Below are positions 9,732 through 62,024 of a stretch of 64,000 bases of DNA, piece after piece. Origin of the DNA: Enterobacter cancerogenus (GTDB lineage Bacteria; Pseudomonadota; Gammaproteobacteria; Enterobacterales; Enterobacteriaceae); assembly GCF_019047785.1 (NCBI RefSeq), contig NZ_CP077290.1, positions 3,224,001 through 3,288,000 of the forward strand, written 5' to 3'. A program made the position numbers and the translations under genes. Position 1 is the first letter of the stretch; every line of letters begins with the position of its first letter. The notes under the pieces are model-generated. The model was not told the DNA's origin, did not search any database, and was given only the letters and a program-made list of their open reading frames with translations.

Positions 9732-11222
9732 ATGAGTATGTCTACCCAAAGCATCCCGTGGTATCGCCATCTTAGCCGCCCCCAGTGGCGTGCGTTCTCC
9801 GCCGCCTGGCTGGGATATCTGCTTGATGGCTTCGATTTTGTATTAATAGCCTTAGTTCTGACGGAAATAAAAAGTGAATTTGGCCTCACCACGGTGGAAG
9901 CGGCAAGCCTGATATCGGCGGCCTTTATTTCACGCTGGTTCGGTGGCCTGCTGCTGGGCGCAATGGGCGATCGCTATGGCCGCAAGCTGGCGATGATCAC
10001 CAGCATTGTACTCTTCTCCTGCGGCACGCTGGCCTGCGGTTTTGCGCCGGGCTACGTCACCCTGTTTATCGCCCGCATGGTGATCGGTATGGGGATGGCG
10101 GGGGAATACGGTTCCAGCGCAACCTACGTGATTGAAAGCTGGCCGACGCAGCTGCGCAACAAGGCAAGCGGTTTTCTGATCTCCGGATTTTCCGTGGGTG
10201 CGGTGATAGCCGCTCAGGTCTACAGCCTGGTCGTGCCGGTGTGGGGCTGGCGCGCGCTGTTCTTTATCGGCATTTTGCCTATCGTTTTTGCTCTCTGGCT
10301 GCGTAAAAACATACCGGAAGCGGAAGACTGGAAGGCGAAGCACGAAGGTAAAGCGCCAGTATGCACCATGGTCGACATTCTCTATCGCGGCCCATACCGC
10401 GTGATTAACATCCTGATGACCGTGTTTGCCGGTACCGCGCTGTGGTTCTGCTTTGCCGGAGAGCTGAATAATGCGGGGCTTGTGGTGATCCTGGGCCTGC
10501 TGTGCGCCATCGTGTTCATCAGCTTTATGGTGCAAAGTAGCGGCAAACGCTGGCCTACGGGCGTCACGCTGATGGTGGTGGTGCTGTTTGCTTTTCTCTA
10601 CTCATGGCCGATTCAGGCGCTGTTGCCCACCTGGCTTAAAACCGAGCTGGGGTATGACCCGTCAACGGTGGCGCGCGTGCTGTTCTTTAGTGGGTTTGGG
10701 GCAGCGGTAGGCTGCTGCGTGGGCGGTTTCCTCGGAGACTGGCTGGGCACGCGCAAGGCGTACGTCTACAGCCTGATGGCCTCGCAGCTGCTGATCATCC
10801 CCGTCTTTGCGATCGGTGGCGCAAATGTCTGGGTACTGGGCTTGCTACTCTTTTTCCAGCAGATGCTGGGGCAGGGCATTTCCGGGATCTTACCCAAGCT
10901 CATTGGCGGCTATTTCGATACCGACCAGCGTGCCGCCGGGCTGGGCTTTACCTACAACGTCGGGGCGCTGGGCGGGGCCATTGCGCCAGTGATTGGCGCC
11001 TTGCTGGCGCAAAACATGGAGCTGGGCACGGCATTGGGGTCGCTCTCGTTTGGCCTGACGTTCGTGGTGATCCTGCTCATCGGTCTGGACATGCCCTCAC
11101 GCGTTCAGCGCTGGGTCCGCCCGGAAGCCCTGCGTACACACGACGCGATTGACGGTAAACCGCTGAGTGGCGCAGTGCCGTTGGGTGCAGACAAACGTGG
11201 CCCGATCAAACATAAAGGATAA
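9732..11222 (+). CDS. nanT: Sialic acid:H+ symporter NanT
   Basis: An inner-membrane major facilitator superfamily transporter importing N-acetylneuraminate with protons. It has 496 residues. It shows the sialate-transporter layout of 14 predicted membrane segments, with an extra pair in the middle of the usual 12. The MFS signature GDRYGRK lies between segments 2 and 3. The start at 9732 follows GGGAGAG; an in-frame ATG six bases later is an alternative. It is followed after a few bases by nanE. Confidence 0.97.
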
Positions 11223-51874: not shown

Positions 51875-52032
51875 CGCAAAAGCCGGGCTTTTTATCCTGT
51901 TTATCCCACGGGATGTGGGTTCACAAAGGGTTTCGGTTTATCAATAGTATCGCTGATTGTACTGAAAAAACGGCGCAGATAAACGTTACCGTACGTGTTG
52001 TGTTTTTTTTCTTCATCTATTGATGGTAGCAC

Positions 52033-52061
52033 TTGTCAAAGGCTCGCGTTTTGCGTAATAT
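52033..52061 (+). promoter_or_regulatory. rplU-rpmA promoter
   Basis: A -35 TTGTCA (52033-52038) and a -10 TAATAT (52056-52061) are 17 bases apart and are followed by a GC-rich discriminator, as expected for a growth-rate and ppGpp-controlled ribosomal operon. Confidence 0.85.
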
Positions 52062-52077
52062 TCGCGCCCTATTGTGA

Positions 52078-52443
<366 letters not shown>

Positions 52444-52462
52444 GACCTGAGGAGAGATTTAA

Positions 52463-52720
<258 letters not shown>

Positions 52721-52745
52721 GGTTTTCTCGGTCCGGTAACGGATT

Positions 52746-52775
52746 AAAGCCCCGCAACGTGTTGCGGGGCTTTTT
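52746..52775 (+). terminator. Intrinsic terminator of rplU-rpmA
   Basis: A perfect 12-bp stem AAGCCCCGCAAC/GTTGCGGGGCTT with a GT loop is followed by TTT. It lies just upstream of yhbE, which may use read-through or its own promoter. Confidence 0.93.
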
Positions 52776-52815
52776 ACATTGGAAACCCGGAAAATTTTCT
52801 GTAGGGAAAACGGGC

Positions 52816-54973
<2,158 letters not shown>

Positions 54974-54983
54974 TTCCTGCAAG

Positions 54984-55009
54984 AAGCCCCTGTTAAGGGG
55001 CTTTTTTTT
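54984..55009. terminator. Terminator between obgE and pmrB
   Basis: The 8-bp stem AAGCCCCT/AGGGGCTT with a GTTA loop is followed by a run of T residues on the plus strand. The pmrB stop codon (minus strand, 55010-55008) lies inside the T run, so this structure serves obgE rather than pmrB. Confidence 0.9.
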
Positions 55010-56051
55010 ATCCTAACCTCGAAGGCAGCCAGCAACTGGCAATTAAGCCGCCTTGAGGGCCGTTCTCCAGCGTTAATTGCCCGTGGTGGAGCTGAACGAT
55101 ACGCTGCACGATGCTCAGCCCCAGGCCGCTTCCACCGTAGCGCTGGTCAAGACGTCTGAACGGTTCGGTGATTGACTGGCGATGCGCTTCGTCGATGCCC
55201 GGCCCCTCATCAATCACACTGACCTGCGTTCCCCCGTCCCGCTCGGTGAGCTTCACCTCAATGGTCGTCCCCACAGGGCTGTAGCGGGAGGCATTCTCCA
55301 GCAGGTTCCTCAGCATCAGGCGCAGCAGGACAGGGTCTCCCTGCACCGTAAGCGCGCTGTCAGCGGGCCATATCACCTTGTGCTCTTTGGCTTCATGCTC
55401 AAGGCTTAGCGGGGCAATGATGTTTGTGGTCCAGTTGACGGTATCGTAATGCCCGCTGGCCATCGCCTGCCCGGCGCGGGCCAGCATCAGCAGTTGTTCT
55501 ACGGTATGCATGAGCTGGTCGATGCGGCTTATCAGCGGGGCCGCCTGAGGTGAGCCGGATTGCGCCATCAGCTCCAGATGCAGCCGGATACCGGCAAGCG
55601 GCGTTCGCAGTTCGTGGGCCGCGTCAGCGGTGAACAGGCGCTCCTGCTGAATAGTGTGATCCAGACGCGCCAGCAGCTGATTTAATGAAGTCGTGACCGC
55701 ACCAATCTCTTCCATATCAGAATACATGGGCAGAGGGGTGAGATTATCCGCCGAGCGGTTGGCGAGGCTGACGCGCAGCTTATTGAGTGGTCGGGTTATC
55801 CAGGTCACTGCCCAGAACGAAAACAGAAGGGTAAAGCCGACCATGACCAGCGAGGGGACCAGCAGCGAAGCAATGGCCTCGCGGATCTCTTTTTCGACGT
55901 GGCTGTTACGCGCTTTCGCCGACAGGGTTTCACTGACCAGAAAGCCAATCTGCTCGCGGCTCTCATGCCACAGCCAAATCACGCTGATCAACTGGAAAAA
56001 TAACAGGATAACCGCCAGCAACACCATTAATCGCCGACGCATGCTGTTCAT
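55008..56051 (-). CDS. pmrB: PmrB/BasS-type sensor histidine kinase
   Basis: An inner-membrane sensor kinase closely resembling Salmonella PmrB. It has 347 residues. Membrane helices lie at about 6-28 and 63-85 around a short periplasmic loop that keeps two ExxE motifs, E30-E33 and E55-E58, the type that senses ferric iron and low pH in PmrB. HAMP, H-box His146 (in AAHELRTPLAG) and the ATP domain (NLLENASRYS, DEGPGI, GGSGLGLSIV) follow. It overlaps pmrA by four bases. E. coli has basSR elsewhere and nothing here, so this may be the only copy or a second system. Confidence 0.85.
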   Translation of the reverse strand: MNSMRRRLMVLLAVILLFFQLISVIWLWHESREQIGFLVSETLSAKARNSHVEKEIREAIASLLVPSLVMVGFTLLFSFWAVTWITRPLNKLRVSLANRSADNLTPLPMYSDMEEIGAVTTSLNQLLARLDHTIQQERLFTADAAHELRTPLAGIRLHLELMAQSGSPQAAPLISRIDQLMHTVEQLLMLARAGQAMASGHYDTVNWTTNIIAPLSLEHEAKEHKVIWPADSALTVQGDPVLLRLMLRNLLENASRYSPVGTTIEVKLTERDGGTQVSVIDEGPGIDEAHRQSITEPFRRLDQRYGGSGLGLSIVQRIVQLHHGQLTLENGPQGGLIASCWLPSRLG

Positions 56052-56710
56052 TTCTGACTCTCAAGGCGATAGCCTACGCCGCGCACGGTTTTAATTCTGT
56101 CCTTGCCGAGCTTGCGCCGCAGGTTATGAATGTGAACTTCAAGGGTGTTAGAACCTGGATCGTCCTGCCAGGAGTAAATGTCCTGCTGCAGCGTTTCACG
56201 GTGCACCGTCTGCCCGCTGCGCATAATCAGGCGGGTCAGGAGGGCGAACTCTTTTGGCGTGACTTCAACGGGCTGAGACTGGCGCAGCACCTGCTGGGTT
56301 TGCAGATTGAGCGTGATGTCTCCGTCGGTCAGTAGATTATCGCTGTGCCCCTGATAGCGGCGGATAAGCGCCCGCACGCGGGCCTGAAGCTCTGCCAGCG
56401 CAAAGGGTTTTACCAGATAGTCATCAGCGCCCGAGTCGAGGCCGTTAATGCGGTCTTCAATGGCATCGCGCGCCGTGAGGATCAGCACCGGGTTTTCAAC
56501 GCCCCGGCGACGCCACTGGCTTAACAGTGTGGCACCGTCTTTATCTGGCAGGCCCAAATCAAGGATCACCAGGCTGTACTCGCCGCTCTGGATCAGGGCG
56601 TCCGCTTCTGCTGCCGTCGCGGCACAATCGAGCGCATAGCCCTCATTGGCCAGCGCGAGCGCCAGCCCTTCCTGCAATAACAGATCGTCTTCAACTATCA
56701 GGAGTTTCAT
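56048..56710 (-). CDS. pmrA: PmrA/BasR-type response regulator
   Basis: An OmpR-family regulator of 220 residues. The receiver has acidic residues at 8-9, phospho-acceptor Asp51 in LVILDLGLPD, and Lys in GADDYLVKPF. The winged helix ends with TLEVHIHNLRRKLGKDRIKTVRGVGYRLE, typical of PmrA and QseB. It is transcribed from a promoter in the gap it shares with the opgB-like gene (candidate -10 CATAAT at 56753-56748) and precedes pmrB. PmrA is favoured over QseB because the partner kinase is PmrB-like. Confidence 0.85.
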   Translation of the reverse strand: MKLLIVEDDLLLQEGLALALANEGYALDCAATAAEADALIQSGEYSLVILDLGLPDKDGATLLSQWRRRGVENPVLILTARDAIEDRINGLDSGADDYLVKPFALAELQARVRALIRRYQGHSDNLLTDGDITLNLQTQQVLRQSQPVEVTPKEFALLTRLIMRSGQTVHRETLQQDIYSWQDDPGSNTLEVHIHNLRRKLGKDRIKTVRGVGYRLESQK

Positions 56711-56795
56711 CTCAGTTTGTTCTGCCTTTTATCCTTTCAATTTCATGATTATGGCAGAAAGGAAGACTCGTGCCTTGCTGCATTCTGCCTTTAAT

Positions 56796-56823
56796 CTTAA
56801 TAAAATCCTAATTTATTTTAAAT
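56796..56823. promoter_or_regulatory. PmrA-box-like direct repeats
   Basis: CTTAAT (56796-56801), five bases, CCTAAT (56807-56812), five bases, then TTAAAT (56818-56823). The first two hexamers match the PmrA consensus (C/T)TTAA(G/T)-N5 repeat at 6 of 6 and 5 of 6 positions. The site lies between the divergent pmrA and opgB-like starts. A possible plus-strand -35 TTGACT follows at 56837-56842. Being AT-rich sequence, part of the match could be chance. Confidence 0.55.
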
Positions 56824-56914
56824 GAATAGTGAGGCTTTGACTCAAAAGATATACTAATAATCTTTTTCATAAACTGTCATTGTCAGTAGCGTCCAGTAAT
56901 TAACGAGTAATAGA

Positions 56915-59251
56915 ATGGAATCTTTTAGTTTATTAATGCTTTCTGTATGCTTTATTTTCTGTGCAACGGCTGTTTACCGATATAAATCTCAACAAAATGC
57001 TTACATTTCAGTATTCATTTTTGTACTGACCGTTGTCTCTGTCTTACTGGATTGTTTCTGGGTCGTGTGTCAGTACTTTACCGGTGATGGGGTCAACGAG
57101 TCCGTTCTTTACACGCTGACGACAACCATGGAAGGCGGTGAAATTAATGATTACATTTTTCCATCAATATTAGCAATTCTGTTTTGTGTTGTAACCATTA
57201 TTGTCATTCATAGAATCTTATTTCATGGTGACTCGGGTAAAAAACAAAGCTGGACTTACGCGTTTTTAGCGACGTGCTGCAGTGTCCTTGCATTGCTGAT
57301 ATCACCAGCATTTTCACAAATTAGCAGAAATACATTACTGGCAGAAAAAATAGATGGATCTGATTTTAATGAGTATTTTATTAATGAGATCAGTCAGATA
57401 GAAAAGCCAAAATTCAATCTGGTCTATATCTATGGTGAAAGTCTGGAACGCACTTATTTTAATAATGACGTGTTTCCTGACTTGCTGCCCGATTTGAATA
57501 AGTTTCGTGAAAAAAGTATGGATTTTTCCGATACATTACAAATGCCAGCCACCGATTTTACCATCGCCGGTATTGTTGCTTCGCAATGTGGGCTACCATT
57601 ATTTAAACCCACGGCGTTTAATGGCCAAAACACAGCCAGTAGTTTTTATCCTGAAAGTCATTGCCTTGGCGATATACTCAGCGCATCAGGTTATGAGACG
57701 TATTTTTATCAAGGCGCCAACCTGCACTTCGCTGATAAAGATGCTTTTTTTAAGGTTCACGGCATAAAGCATGTATGGGGTCTTACTGAATCCGGCCTGC
57801 AGGATAATTTTGACGTGCAAAATAACTGGGGGCTTTATGACAACGTGGTGCTGGATAAAGCCTGGGAAAAATTCAGCGAATTATCCTCCTCAGGCCAGCG
57901 TTTCGCACTGTTCACGCTGACAGTCGATACGCATCCTCCTAAAGGCTATATTTCACCCGGTTGCAGTAAGAAAAATTACCAGATTGATGGGCGCTCGGTT
58001 GAAGCGTTAAGCGCTGTGCTGTGCAGTCAGGAAGATATTGCCCGGTTTGTTGAACGCATCCAATCCTCTCCCTGGGCCCGTAACACGATTATTGTTCTTT
58101 CATCAGATCATCTGGCTATGCCTAGCACGGCGGTTTCAGTCGACTATCTGAACAAACTCGAGCGTCGGGATCTGTTTTTCGTCCTTGGACCCCAGGTGAA
58201 ACCTGGTGTAAAAGCGCAGCCCAGAACTACCCTGGATAACGGTGCGACCGTTCTTGACCTGTTGGGTGGGGGAACAAAAATAGGTCTGGGAAGGAGTTCC
58301 GCCAGCGAAAAATCTCTCGCGGAAAGCGTACCCGACTTCAAGAATAAGCTTTACGCATGGGGCGATAGCATACGTAACCTCTGGGGGACGCCAAACCATA
58401 TCGATCGTTTTACCGTTAATACTCGAGAAAAGACATTTTCGTTCAGCGGCCGTACCTACCCCTTGCCGATAGTCATTGATATCAAAAAGGATCAAGTATT
58501 GCCTGTCATAGATGATGACAGTCGAGACATCTCATTAAGGCAATCGCTGGCGTATTTATCCGAAGGCGAAAAATTTATATGGGTAGATAAATGTTTCCAT
58601 CCAGGAACCGTCTGGATGAACAGTCTGGTGCTTTCTGAAGCGTGGTGCGTGACTCAGGGGAGAGCTGGTGGAAATATCGTAGTCAAAAAAATCGATGGTA
58701 AGAAATATGACGGCAAAGTGAATACTGATGATACGCCGACAAATACCGCGCGCTATCAGCGTGAGCAGGCGCTGTTGAAAGTGAATCCTGAAGATATTCG
58801 TTATGTCTCTGATACTTTCAAATTTGGTCTGGATGGCAGACCTGATTTCATCGAAAACATGATGGGGATTGGTCGACAAGAACCCTGGGGGCGCTGGTCG
58901 GATGCGCTTACTTCTCCTATGGTGATGCTGTTATATAAATCGCCTTTTCCTCAGAAATTTGATGTAGAAATTGAAGCGAAAGCCTATGGCAAAAATATCA
59001 ATGCTCCGGTAGCAATTACCATCGGAGATCAGACGCAATACGCTAAATTCGGGGAAAATCCGACTCGCGTGACCCTTCATTACACGGGGGATATGTACTC
59101 ACGTTTGATCACCCTTACTCCGCCTGAGCCAATACTAAGCCGTGAAGGCAGCATATTAGGGCAAAGTTTCACCTCACCCGTCAGAAAGATAGGTATAGGG
59201 CTGGTTGAAATAAAAATTGTGCCAGTAGCAGGAACGGCTGAGCGGAAATGA
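56915..59251 (+). CDS. OpgB/MdoB-like phosphoglycerol transferase (paralogue)
   Basis: A homologue of phosphoglycerol transferase I, which moves sn-1-phosphoglycerol from phosphatidylglycerol to periplasmic glucans. It has 778 residues. Four membrane helices (about 4-22, 30-52, 81-104, 113-133) precede a periplasmic alkaline-phosphatase/sulfatase domain. That domain has YGESLERTYF (Glu175), the nucleophile region ATDFTIAG (Thr213), VDTH (His340) and SSDHLAM (Asp398-His399). The catalytic residues are all kept. Composition is much richer in A and T than its neighbours. E. coli opgB lies elsewhere, so this looks like an extra copy. The acceptor is unknown. Confidence 0.82.
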   Translation: MESFSLLMLSVCFIFCATAVYRYKSQQNAYISVFIFVLTVVSVLLDCFWVVCQYFTGDGVNESVLYTLTTTMEGGEINDYIFPSILAILFCVVTIIVIHRILFHGDSGKKQSWTYAFLATCCSVLALLISPAFSQISRNTLLAEKIDGSDFNEYFINEISQIEKPKFNLVYIYGESLERTYFNNDVFPDLLPDLNKFREKSMDFSDTLQMPATDFTIAGIVASQCGLPLFKPTAFNGQNTASSFYPESHCLGDILSASGYETYFYQGANLHFADKDAFFKVHGIKHVWGLTESGLQDNFDVQNNWGLYDNVVLDKAWEKFSELSSSGQRFALFTLTVDTHPPKGYISPGCSKKNYQIDGRSVEALSAVLCSQEDIARFVERIQSSPWARNTIIVLSSDHLAMPSTAVSVDYLNKLERRDLFFVLGPQVKPGVKAQPRTTLDNGATVLDLLGGGTKIGLGRSSASEKSLAESVPDFKNKLYAWGDSIRNLWGTPNHIDRFTVNTREKTFSFSGRTYPLPIVIDIKKDQVLPVIDDDSRDISLRQSLAYLSEGEKFIWVDKCFHPGTVWMNSLVLSEAWCVTQGRAGGNIVVKKIDGKKYDGKVNTDDTPTNTARYQREQALLKVNPEDIRYVSDTFKFGLDGRPDFIENMMGIGRQEPWGRWSDALTSPMVMLLYKSPFPQKFDVEIEAKAYGKNINAPVAITIGDQTQYAKFGENPTRVTLHYTGDMYSRLITLTPPEPILSREGSILGQSFTSPVRKIGIGLVEIKIVPVAGTAERK

Positions 59252-59258
59252 AGTATAG

Positions 59259-59287
59259 CGGTGGCCTGCACGCTATACAGGCCACCG
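59259..59287. terminator. Hairpin between opgB-like gene and dacB
   Basis: A perfect 10-bp stem CGGTGGCCTG/CAGGCCACCG with a nine-base loop lies between convergent genes. An overlapping inverted repeat TATAGCG/CGCTATA (59254-59260 and 59271-59277) offers an alternative fold. There is no strong T run on either strand. Confidence 0.6.
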
Positions 59288-59293
59288 TCATCG

Positions 59294-60727
59294 TCAATTA
59301 TTTTGATAAATGTCTTTGTATAGCCTGCTTTCGAAGCGCACCAGAGGAATGCGACGATTACGCTGGTCTGCTGGTTCGACGGCATAGCCGGAAAGATACT
59401 GTACGAACGCCATGCGTTGTCCACTGGCGGTCGTGATAAAGCCTGCCAGGTTATACACGCCCTGCAGCGAGCCTGTTTTAGCCGAGACCTTTCCATCCAC
59501 TCCCGCAGCATGAAGCCCGGCGCGGTACTGAAGGGAGCCATCGTGCCCGGCAAGCGGCAGCATCGTAATAAAGTTTAGTTCAGTGTCGTGCTGTGCAATG
59601 TACTGCAGCACCTGCATCATGGTCGCGGGGGAGATCAGGTTATGGCGTGACAGCCCTGAACCATCGACGGCAATCGTATTGCCAAGGTCGATCCCCGCCT
59701 GCTGGCGCAGGATCTGCCGTACAGCGTCAGACCCCGCACGCCAGGTACCCGGCACGCCGAAACGCGCATGGCCAATCATGCGGAACACCGTATCCGCGAT
59801 CATATTGTCCGATTTTTTCAGCATAATCCTAAGCAGATCGTGCAGCGGCGCGGACTGTTTGCTGGCGATGACGTTACCCGACTGATTAACCTGCGTCTGG
59901 CGCAGCAGGGTGCCAGAATAGGTAATTCCGGCCTGTTTGAGTTCGTCTTTAAGAATGGCACCTGCGTAACCCGCGCCATCCTGAATAGCAAAGGCCAGCG
60001 GCAGCGGGTCGGCACGCTGCGTCAGGCAGCCGGTGAGCGTGTAGCGGTTTAAATCACCCGGGACGACGTCAAGCTCACAGTACTGCGCATCCGGCGATCC
60101 TTTTGCCAGCGTACGCACCTGGCTGAACATCGTGACCGGGTAGTAAGAGGCGACACGAATAAAGGCTAAATCATTCGGCTTTGGTGCGCTGTAAAGCGAC
60201 ACGGAGAAACAGTTACGGTCAACGATAGCCGCGGCTGGCGGGGCACTAAAGCACTGCGTCATGTCGTTCCACGGCCAGCCTGGGGCTTTATCATGGCTGG
60301 CAAAAATCGAGGTGTCGATCAGTACGTTGCCATCGATCTTTTGCACACCAGATTTTTTCAGCACCGCCACCATGTTGCGAATATCCTGGCGCTTGAACGT
60401 TGGGTCGCCGCCGAACCGGGCGATAAGATCGCCTTTCAGCTCGCCACCGTCGATGTTACCTTTGGTCTCAAGGGTGGTGGTAAAGCGGAAGTCAGGACCA
60501 AGCTGAAGCAGCGCGGCGAGGGCGGTGATCACCTTTTGGGTACTGGCAGGCAGCGCCATCTGTTGACTGTGATAGTCAATATCGGGTGCCTGTGCTCCAA
60601 CCTTCTGCACCATCAGCGCAAGGTTAGCCCCTGCGGGCAGCTGGTTAATGTACTCATCAACATTCGCGGCCTGAACGGTGAACGTGATACTGGTAGTCAA
60701 TCCGATGATAAATCTGGAAAATCGCAT
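59294..60727 (-). CDS. dacB: D-alanyl-D-alanine carboxypeptidase/endopeptidase DacB (PBP4)
   Basis: A periplasmic class C penicillin-binding protein that trims pentapeptides and cuts cross-links; its loss can induce AmpC beta-lactamase in relatives. It has 477 residues. The signal peptide ends VQAA, the SxxK motif is STQK (about 62-65), SxN is SDN (about 306-308) and KTG is AKTGS (about 416-420). It matches E. coli PBP4 throughout. It is divergent from greA and converges on the opgB-like gene. Confidence 0.97.
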   Translation of the reverse strand: MRFSRFIIGLTTSITFTVQAANVDEYINQLPAGANLALMVQKVGAQAPDIDYHSQQMALPASTQKVITALAALLQLGPDFRFTTTLETKGNIDGGELKGDLIARFGGDPTFKRQDIRNMVAVLKKSGVQKIDGNVLIDTSIFASHDKAPGWPWNDMTQCFSAPPAAAIVDRNCFSVSLYSAPKPNDLAFIRVASYYPVTMFSQVRTLAKGSPDAQYCELDVVPGDLNRYTLTGCLTQRADPLPLAFAIQDGAGYAGAILKDELKQAGITYSGTLLRQTQVNQSGNVIASKQSAPLHDLLRIMLKKSDNMIADTVFRMIGHARFGVPGTWRAGSDAVRQILRQQAGIDLGNTIAVDGSGLSRHNLISPATMMQVLQYIAQHDTELNFITMLPLAGHDGSLQYRAGLHAAGVDGKVSAKTGSLQGVYNLAGFITTASGQRMAFVQYLSGYAVEPADQRNRRIPLVRFESRLYKDIYQNN

Positions 60728-60804
60728 AGTCTCGCGCTAACAACCCGAAAACAAACCGTCATACTACGGTGCATGGCACTGCAAAGTAAACGATGACCCA
60801 TAGT

Positions 60805-60831
60805 GAACTTCGCGGTAAAATGCGTATCAAA
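60805..60831 (+). promoter_or_regulatory. Sigma-E promoter of greA leader (P2-like)
   Basis: GAACTT (60805-60810) and TCAAA (60827-60831) are 16 bases apart, matching the sigma-E consensus. E. coli greA is known to have a sigma-E promoter at this position. A sigma-70 promoter should lie upstream but was not placed. Confidence 0.75.
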
Positions 60832-60836
60832 TTGAA

Positions 60837-60883
60837 AAATTGCTGCTGACCTGGGACTTTGTTCCCGGGTCGGTTTTCTTTTT
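60837..60883 (+). ncRNA. graL: GraL leader small RNA of greA
   Basis: A short leader ends in the stem GACCTGGGA/TCCCGGGTC (60848-60856 with 60863-60871, one G-U pair) followed by GGTTTTCTTTTT, an intrinsic terminator about 90 bases before greA. This is the layout of E. coli GraL, an array of short RNAs made by termination in the greA leader. The start is inferred from the sigma-E promoter. Confidence 0.72.
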
Positions 60884-60975
60884 GCTTCTGGCCCGCTCAT
60901 GGTTGGATGTACATGGGCGCAGGGGCCGGAGCAGGTGACGCTGCTCCCAACAGGAATGTTCAAGAGGTATAACAA

Positions 60976-61452
60976 ATGCAAGCTATTCCGATGACCTTAC
61001 GTGGCGCAGAAAAACTGCGCGAAGAGCTGGATTTCCTTAAATCCGTACGTCGCCCTGAAATCATTGCCGCTATCGCGGATGCGCGTGAGCACGGCGACCT
61101 GAAAGAAAATGCTGAATACCACGCCGCGCGTGAGCAGCAGGGCTTTTGCGAAGGCCGTATTAAAGATATCGAAGCGAAGCTGTCTAATGCGCAGGTTATC
61201 GATATCACCAAAATGCCAAACAATGGTCGCGTGATTTTCGGCGCTACCGTTACCGTGCTGAACCTGGACAACGACGAAGAGCAGAAATACCGCATCGTTG
61301 GGGATGACGAAGCTGACTTTAAGCAGAACCTCATCTCGGTAAACTCGCCGATTGCGCGCGGTCTGATTGGCAAAGAGCAGGACGATGTTGTCGTCATCCG
61401 CACTCCGGGTGGTGAAGTGGAATACGAAATTATTAAGGTTGAATACCTGTAA
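60976..61452 (+). CDS. greA: Transcript cleavage factor GreA
   Basis: Rescues backtracked RNA polymerase by stimulating cleavage of the RNA 3' end. It has 158 residues. The N-terminal coiled coil (to about residue 75) has the acidic tip [14 protein letters not shown], and the C-terminal FKBP-like domain ends IKVEYL. It is preceded by GAGG and by the GraL attenuator, and followed by a terminator. Confidence 0.98.
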
Positions 61453-61494
61453 TTCGCATCTCCGATAAGATGTTGATACATTGTAAAGATAAGA

Positions 61495-61518
61495 AAAAGG
61501 CCGCATAGCGGCCTTTTA
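61495..61518. terminator. Terminator after greA
   Basis: The 10-bp stem AAAAGGCCGC/GCGGCCTTTT with an ATA loop has A and T flanks suited to termination on both strands, serving greA and possibly the convergent yhbY. Confidence 0.88.
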
Positions 61519-61603
61519 TCAACTTAAGTAGCGTGGCATTTTGCTCACCTGCTGACAGAAATCCCTCGTTTTACACAGAAAATGTGTTCGATTCAGGATA
61601 TCC

Positions 61604-61897
61604 TTAGCGTGGCAGCGAGATTTTACGCTCTTTAGATGGGCGATAGAGCACCAGCGTTTTACCGATGACCTGTACATTACAGGCGCCGGTTTCGCGCACG
61701 ATGGCTTCCACGATCAGGTTTTTAGTGTCTCTGTCTTCAGAGGCGATTTTCACCTTGATCAGCTCGTGGTGTTCCAGCGCTTGTTCAATCTCGGCAAGCA
61801 CCCCTTCGGTCAAACCATTGTTGCCAAGCATAACTACCGGCTTGAGCGGATGTGCCAGACCTTTAAGGTGCTGTTTTTGTTTAGTACTCAGATTCAT
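61604..61897 (-). CDS. yhbY: CRM-domain ribosome assembly protein YhbY
   Basis: A small RNA-binding protein found with pre-50S particles. It has 97 residues. The CRM motif is in VMLGNNGLTEGVLAEIEQALEHHELIKVKI. ATG 61897 gives the family start MNLSTKQKQHLKGLAHPLKP; the frame open to 61936 adds 13 doubtful residues. It is divergent from rlmE, as in E. coli. Confidence 0.95.
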   Translation of the reverse strand: MNLSTKQKQHLKGLAHPLKPVVMLGNNGLTEGVLAEIEQALEHHELIKVKIASEDRDTKNLIVEAIVRETGACNVQVIGKTLVLYRPSKERKISLPR

Positions 61898-62024
61898 CGT
61901 ATATTTTTGCTTACGTTGGGATTGAAAACGGTTCATTCTACCGCCATCTCCCTAATATCGCCAAATAGCTGCGTAGAAATTTACGTCACAGGCAAGCAAC
62001 GATGAACCAGGACGGAAATGTTAA

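Follow-up and report, generated by a model that had tools for sequence, protein, structure and literature searches.

A second OpgB-type gene with a PmrA-type promoter box at the obgE-dacB site of Enterobacter cancerogenus

The response regulator PmrA, which is phosphorylated by the sensor kinase PmrB, is best known for making lipid A more positively charged. The pbgP promoter of Klebsiella carries the PmrA box CTTAATATTATCCTAAG, which PmrA footprints and which the activated full-length protein binds with a dissociation constant (Kd) of 45 nM, according to the available parts of two reports (PMC3973317; PMC2565834, with the footprint). In Cronobacter sakazakii, pmrAB is described, in the portion of the report at hand, as being in an operon with dacB, with eptA located elsewhere (PMC7326031). 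Here we analyze a stretch of 64,000 nucleotides (nt) from Enterobacter cancerogenus (contig NZ_CP077290.1, positions 3,224,001 to 3,288,000; hereafter the window), in which pmrAB and a divergently transcribed gene for an OpgB homologue of 778 amino acids (aa), called opgB2 below, lie between obgE and dacB. Among open-licence papers, in the parts of them that were available, we found no report of PmrA control of OpgB/MdoB. The explanation that we favor, and consider somewhat probable as a whole, is that opgB2 would be an old, site-bound OpgB paralogue controlled by PmrA, whose product adds phosphoglycerol, most probably to glucans.

The PmrA-type box upstream of opgB2

An earlier sequence-only reading of this DNA had pointed to a PmrA-box-like repeat between pmrA and opgB2, and we located it on the plus strand at 56796-56812, where CTTAATAAAATCCTAAT (CTTAAT-aaaat-CCTAAT) agrees with the published pbgP box at 11 of its 12 half-site letters. 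It is the sole site in the window with at least 10 of these 12 letters, and its layout, CTTAAT-N5-CCTAAT, equals the footprinted pbgP/arnB layout. Seven genomes with opgB2 were compared: the window's genome (G000), two others of its genus (G162 and G197), two of probable Superficieibacter type (G056 and G242, which share a genus) and two of probable Citrobacter type (G304 and G412). The half-sites are kept in five of the seven opgB2 promoters and have diverged in the two of Citrobacter type. There were 11 of 12 letters in G000, G162, G197 and G056 and 10 of 12 in G242, and the dinucleotide shuffles doing as well numbered 4, 7, 4 and 2 per 1000 in the first four, in that order, and 22 in the last. 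These five upstream regions are 54-58% identical in pairwise comparisons, except for those of G162 and G197, which are 94% identical and were therefore counted as one lineage.

The spacing between the box and a putative -10 element was constant. For each promoter the plus-strand site most like the published box was chosen, and in every one of the seven opgB2 promoters, those of Citrobacter type included, precisely 37 nt separated the end of that site from a TATAAT-like hexamer (TATACT at 56850-56855, plus strand, in the window). The summed match to TATAAT at this offset was 38 of 42 over the seven promoters (next best offset, 22).

The exact pattern CTTAAT-N5-CCTAAD was then run over 14 chosen whole genomes, seven with opgB2 and seven without, and gave eight matches, of which four were upstream of opgB2, three upstream of arnB (the identity of ArnB being confirmed by family model in G000 only) and one elsewhere. 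The window's genome had only two, upstream of arnB and of opgB2. With a box conserved in five of seven promoters and exact matches in this genome only at arnB and opgB2, the regulatory hunch of the sequence-only reading is strengthened. Within the same genome, the canonical opgB promoter had no box above shuffles (8 of 12 letters; 656 of 1000 shuffles), and no site of 10 of 12 letters was present upstream of eptA in the stretch examined, one such site lying within the gene. The best reading of these data is that opgB2 would be under PmrA control in Enterobacter and Superficieibacter; the site is observed, and its binding by PmrA is what we infer from it.

Several observations weigh against this reading or limit it. 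The Citrobacter-type promoters read CTTTAT-N5-CTGAAA (8 of 12 letters), which was equaled by 726 and 773 of 1000 shuffles, and thus the claim of PmrA control does not extend to the Citrobacter-type genomes. A backwards control pattern gave 15 matches in the same 14 genomes compared with eight for the pattern itself, so that the number of matches is not enriched and only their places are telling. Another site with 11 of 12 letters exists in the 19.9-kb stretch around canonical opgB (L109), so one such site alone would mean little. In three arnB promoters of the genus, the hexamer approximately 37-38 nt past the box is merely AT-rich. The -35 region of the opgB2 promoter is poor, and a sigma-70 scan listed no plus-strand promoter there and two on the minus strand (0.8 expected); a poor -35 region with no plus-strand listing fits an activator-dependent promoter, although it is not proof of one. 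The CCTAA half of the box, within ATCCTAA, resembles one half of an RcsB site. As to the product rather than the promoter, fixed changes near the active site of OpgB2 (such as histidine 341 to proline) leave room for an acceptor different from glucan.

pmrAB and the obgE-dacB site

Searches of the whole genome (4.82 Mb in one contig, C1) identified the window's copy, with pmrAB at C1:3279011, as the single PmrB of the genome, the other 16 kinase matches being no more than 35% identical. EptA is encoded at C1:619703 and not beside pmrAB, so that eptA (pmrC) and pmrAB do not form one operon. The sequence-only reading had raised the matter of a separate pmrCAB in this genome, and what was found is an eptA with no second PmrB, the only pmrAB being that of the window. 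Of eight PmrA DNA-contact residues named in the available part of PMC3973317, seven are identical to those of BasR (K153, R171, N188, H193, H195, R198 and R210), and residue 187 is S in place of T.

A DNA search matched the pmrAB side of the region in all 61 genomes of the genus. By our reading of the listing, the dacB side directly abuts pmrAB in 58 of them, all 58 without opgB2 (in two, part of the region is on another contig), and opgB2 lies between dacB and pmrA in three, namely G000, G162 and G197. Across the family, 66 of 149 genomes had a PmrB match at an E value of 1e-60 or better; leaving the window aside, dacB lies immediately upstream of pmrA at 28 of the 29 loci with the best scores, and 26 also have obgE within the stretch examined. 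The empty site of G144, read base by base, has dacB ending approximately 2 nt ahead of the pmrA start, as would suit a dacB-pmrAB operon. In E. coli K-12, the interval from dacB to obgE holds no annotated gene. The statement that E. coli has nothing at this site was therefore correct, while the site itself proved not to be unusual, with pmrAB present there in 61 of 61 genomes of the genus and in 28 of the 29 best other loci.

The opgB2 gene lies between obgE and dacB in constant orientation in all seven genomes in which its context was read. In the three of the window's genus pmrAB is also at the site; the four of Superficieibacter and Citrobacter type lack it there. A self-contained PmrAB-OpgB circuit, as originally proposed, is contradicted by the 58 genomes with pmrAB and no opgB2, and the three genes do not consistently co-occur, pmrAB being missing at four of seven opgB2 loci. 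Nor would PmrAB be dedicated to opgB2, since the arn operon, with a matching box in its promoter, would depend on the same pair. The two are neighbors because opgB2 lies between dacB and pmrA in Enterobacter, and the best explanation appears to be that this adjacency is positional and that the regulatory link would run through the box.

The fixed left neighbor of the site is obgE (53798-54973, plus strand; NCBIfam TIGR02729, 493 bits) and its fixed right neighbor is dacB (59294-60727, minus strand), whose product passes the NCBIfam DacB model. Between them are pmrB (55008-56051, minus strand; NF008025, 536.8 bits, cut-off 314), pmrA (56048-56710, minus strand; NF007928, 395.7 bits, cut-off 330) and opgB2 (56915-59251, plus strand; NF003000 OpgB, 923.7 bits, cut-off 574). 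The pmrB, pmrA and opgB2 open reading frames are all intact and all five products, ObgE, PmrB, PmrA, OpgB2 and DacB, pass curated NCBIfam models, in agreement with the earlier description of a pmrAB operon and a divergent 778-residue OpgB homologue at this position. A terminator-like hairpin 3' of obgE (54981-55006, plus strand; 11 pairs, then a T-run) was found by consensus scan only, and as a class such hairpins showed no excess over chance (5 in the window, 7.1 in shuffles). No tRNA was found within 52000-62000.

A 15-nt block, TGATTATGGCAGAAA, at 56746-56760 on the minus strand is identical across the three opgB2 loci of the Enterobacter genus in a three-sequence alignment, and could serve pmrAB as an extended -10 (TGcCATAAT). 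Two of the three intergenic regions that share it are near-identical to each other, and the sigma-70 scan did not list this candidate. The block may be a promoter needed by pmrAB once it is cut off from dacB. Two genomes had more than one region or kinase of this type. G198, which belongs to the genus, has two different obgE-pmrAB-dacB regions (C108:3411-7370 and C40:12460-16385), whose pmrAB sides are 70% and 81% identical to that of the window; this could represent a second lineage or contamination. G027 has two PmrB-type kinases, one at C1:606811 (76% identical to that of the window), which sits at the obgE-dacB site, and one at C1:4100691 (45%).

The OpgB2 protein and its relatives

OpgB2 consists of N-terminal helices, a PF00884 domain of the sulfatase/alkaline-phosphatase fold and a C-terminal PF22895 domain. 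A separate opgB, the presence of which had been left to be checked, does exist in the genome: the canonical gene is at C1:2011138, and its product scores 1517 bits on the OpgB model and is 44% identical to OpgB2. The genome encodes six sulfatase-family proteins, which are the two OpgB proteins, EptA, EptB, YejM and a 527-aa protein (L003) that received no name from the family scan at the threshold used and is probably OpgE.

The claim that the catalytic residues are intact agrees with our alignment (A2), in which E175, T213, T216, H340, D398 and H399 are kept in all 19 OpgB2 rows and all nine canonical rows. The putative metal-binding and catalytic roles of these residues are those known from LtaS-type enzymes, with either T213 or T216 as the candidate nucleophile. 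Three metagenomic OpgB relatives of 784-787 aa (P0021, P0023 and P0025) have a methionine at the T213 position and keep T216, which implies either that T213 is not the nucleophile or that the chemistry of this sister group has changed. There are 18 fixed differences between OpgB2 and the canonical proteins in the same alignment (15 substitutions and three gap columns). Among them, position 341, which adjoins the conserved H340, is P in OpgB2 and H in the canonical copies, and these columns make a changed acceptor possible.

An AlphaFold model of OpgB2 had a mean predicted local distance difference test score (pLDDT) of 81 and a predicted template modeling score (pTM) of 0.66. Its closest PDB folds are VP1736 (3lxq) and the lipoteichoic acid enzymes LtaP and LtaS, at a TM-score of approximately 0.6 by target length, with MCR-1 and EptA lower in the match list; these closest folds are as expected for a phosphoglycerol enzyme. 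From its family, domains and catalytic residues, OpgB2 most probably transfers phosphoglycerol from phosphatidylglycerol to periplasmic glucan.

Genes for OpgB2 are sparsely distributed. Matches of at least 60% identity were found in two of 149 family genomes (G000 and G056), and a Citrobacter-type OpgB2 query, run at a strict threshold chosen to leave out canonical copies, matched five of 392. The gene is present in three of 61 genomes of the window's genus and in two of four of the genus of G056, and near protein relatives with 75-80% identity are named Enterobacter cloacae, mori, sichuanensis and quasihormaechei. In the tree, from which P0019 and the G242 protein (broken reading frame) were left out and in which four canonical rows were below full length (549-731 aa), the 24 OpgB2 rows cluster together with a support of 95/91 and are distinct from the canonical copies (branch 0.89, 100/100); OpgB2 is therefore not the orthologue of canonical opgB. 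Subgroups follow the names Enterobacter, Superficieibacter and Citrobacter/Salmonella, with G304 among the Citrobacter rows. The deepest join is unsure because long branches meet between the canonical copies and the metagenomic sister group, as the tree program warned.

The ratio of nonsynonymous to synonymous substitution rates (dN/dS) of opgB2 was 0.071 for the pair G162-G197, indicating purifying selection; in this pair dacB gave 0.014 and pmrB 0.045. The opgB2 value is a single estimate, the synonymous rate being saturated in five of the six opgB2 pairs. We interpret opgB2 as an old, selected and fast-evolving paralogue that is probably bound to its site and often lost or swapped by recombination in the flanks, and it would then illustrate how a gene that changes quickly can stay at a single chromosomal location in several enteric genera. 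In G242 the opgB2 frame is broken early, at a T run (L117, approximately 10687-10790), which could be a sequencing error or on/off variation.

Possible traces or carriers of the insert were sought and rejected. Overlapping DNA matches had suggested a remnant of dacB at the pmrA edge, and local alignments there were no better than shuffles (270, 219 and 141 of 300). A tblastn search of plasmids, phages not being included, gave 16 records, all below 60% identity and eight with opgB or mdoB annotated under the match. None of 5426 E. coli genomes had a place covering 80% of the Citrobacter-type gene by blastn. A third, more distant OpgB-like protein (30-32% identical) was seen in G189, G172, G162 and G076, as open frames of approximately 740-750 aa, and on the Citrobacter plasmid NZ_CP029735.

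Alternative explanations, mechanism and described systems

The opgB2 gene might be an accessory paralogue with nothing more than the obgE-dacB site in common with pmrAB, which would then be a coincidental neighbor, and PmrA would not control it. The absence of pmrAB from four of the seven opgB2 sites, the lack of a good box in two Citrobacter-type promoters and the 58 of 61 genomes with pmrAB alone speak for this. Against it, five promoters, including two of Superficieibacter type with no adjacent pmrAB, keep a box at the constant distance of 37 nt, and the only two exact matches of the genome fall at arnB and opgB2; we consider coincidence rather unlikely. The conserved element could also be read by a regulator other than PmrA, most plausibly RcsB, whose half-site the right half of the box resembles. 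In Dickeya dadantii an OPG gene, opgC, is an RcsB target, the regulator binding its promoter and raising its expression, according to the available part of one report (PMC4726272). Against RcsB, all five promoters with a well-conserved box retain the left half, which is CTTAAT except for ATTAAT in one, and the layout equals both the pbgP box with its published PmrA footprint, as far as the accessible text gives it, and the arnB box of the same genome. CTTAAT is not known as an RcsB half-site, no search for RcsB sites having been made, and we judge this explanation decidedly improbable.

A different kind of alternative concerns the acceptor, which may have changed so that OpgB2 places phosphoglycerol on lipopolysaccharide or another envelope polymer instead of glucan. 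The long separate OpgB2 branch, the 18 fixed differences with the proline at 341 and the continued presence of a canonical OpgB in the genome would all suit such a shift; the PF22895 domain, the full match to the OpgB model and the retained catalytic letters argue against it, and a new acceptor seems to us distinctly unlikely. It is tempting to combine the two ideas and to speculate that the OpgB paralogue under PmrA control now acts on a different envelope acceptor. Polymyxin or iron stress would in that case set off, in addition to the cationic changes to lipid A, a further decoration with anionic phosphoglycerol, or else deplete the inner membrane of phosphatidylglycerol. We regard this combination as unlikely.

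If opgB2 is under PmrA control and its product retains the glucan acceptor, PmrB would activate PmrA in response to its signal, and PmrA would bind the tandem box, whose center is approximately 58 nt upstream of the start that the -10 predicts, and turn on opgB2 along with the arn operon. OpgB2, in the inner membrane, would then move phosphoglycerol from phosphatidylglycerol to osmoregulated periplasmic glucans, as OpgB does, so that glucan would become more anionic, phosphatidylglycerol would fall and diacylglycerol would rise. Each step after the box is one that we infer. The direction is plausible from data on canonical mdoB, in the parts of the reports available, since MdoB protein is up 2.6-fold in a crrB mutant of Klebsiella that resists polymyxin (PMC9403492), and mdoB, which carries a PhoP box, is down in a Shigella phoPQ mutant (PMC5775216). 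If true, a PmrA switch would be tied to phosphatidylglycerol use and to the charge of periplasmic glucan, and opgB2, as one extra gene that is present or absent in close relatives, would offer a clean genetic handle on glucan phosphoglycerol under peptide or iron stress.

Compared with described systems, OpgB2 resembles the phosphoglycerol transferase I OpgB/MdoB (NF003000) in domains, length, catalytic residues and a score above the cut-off, and differs from it in its separate tree group, its 44% identity, its locus and the PmrA-type box in its promoter. The dacB-pmrAB arrangement of Cronobacter sakazakii (PMC7326031) likewise has pmrAB beside dacB and eptA elsewhere, whereas in the window opgB2, which the available part of that report does not mention, separates dacB from pmrA. 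The locus shares with pmrCAB (eptA-basRS) of Salmonella and E. coli products that pass the PmrA and PmrB models and an adjoining gene for a phospho-group transferase of the alkaline-phosphatase fold, but here that neighbor encodes an OpgB and is divergently transcribed, and eptA is elsewhere in the genome. The mdoB gene of Shigella flexneri is, in the accessible text (PMC5775216), likewise an OpgB gene controlled by a two-component system that belongs to the polymyxin-resistance network, but it has a PhoP box, whereas this paralogue has a PmrA-type one. The PmrA-regulated arn (pbgP) operon has the same box layout and, in the window's genome, a similarly spaced AT-rich hexamer; the difference is that arn adds a cationic sugar to lipid A, whereas OpgB2 would add an anionic group.

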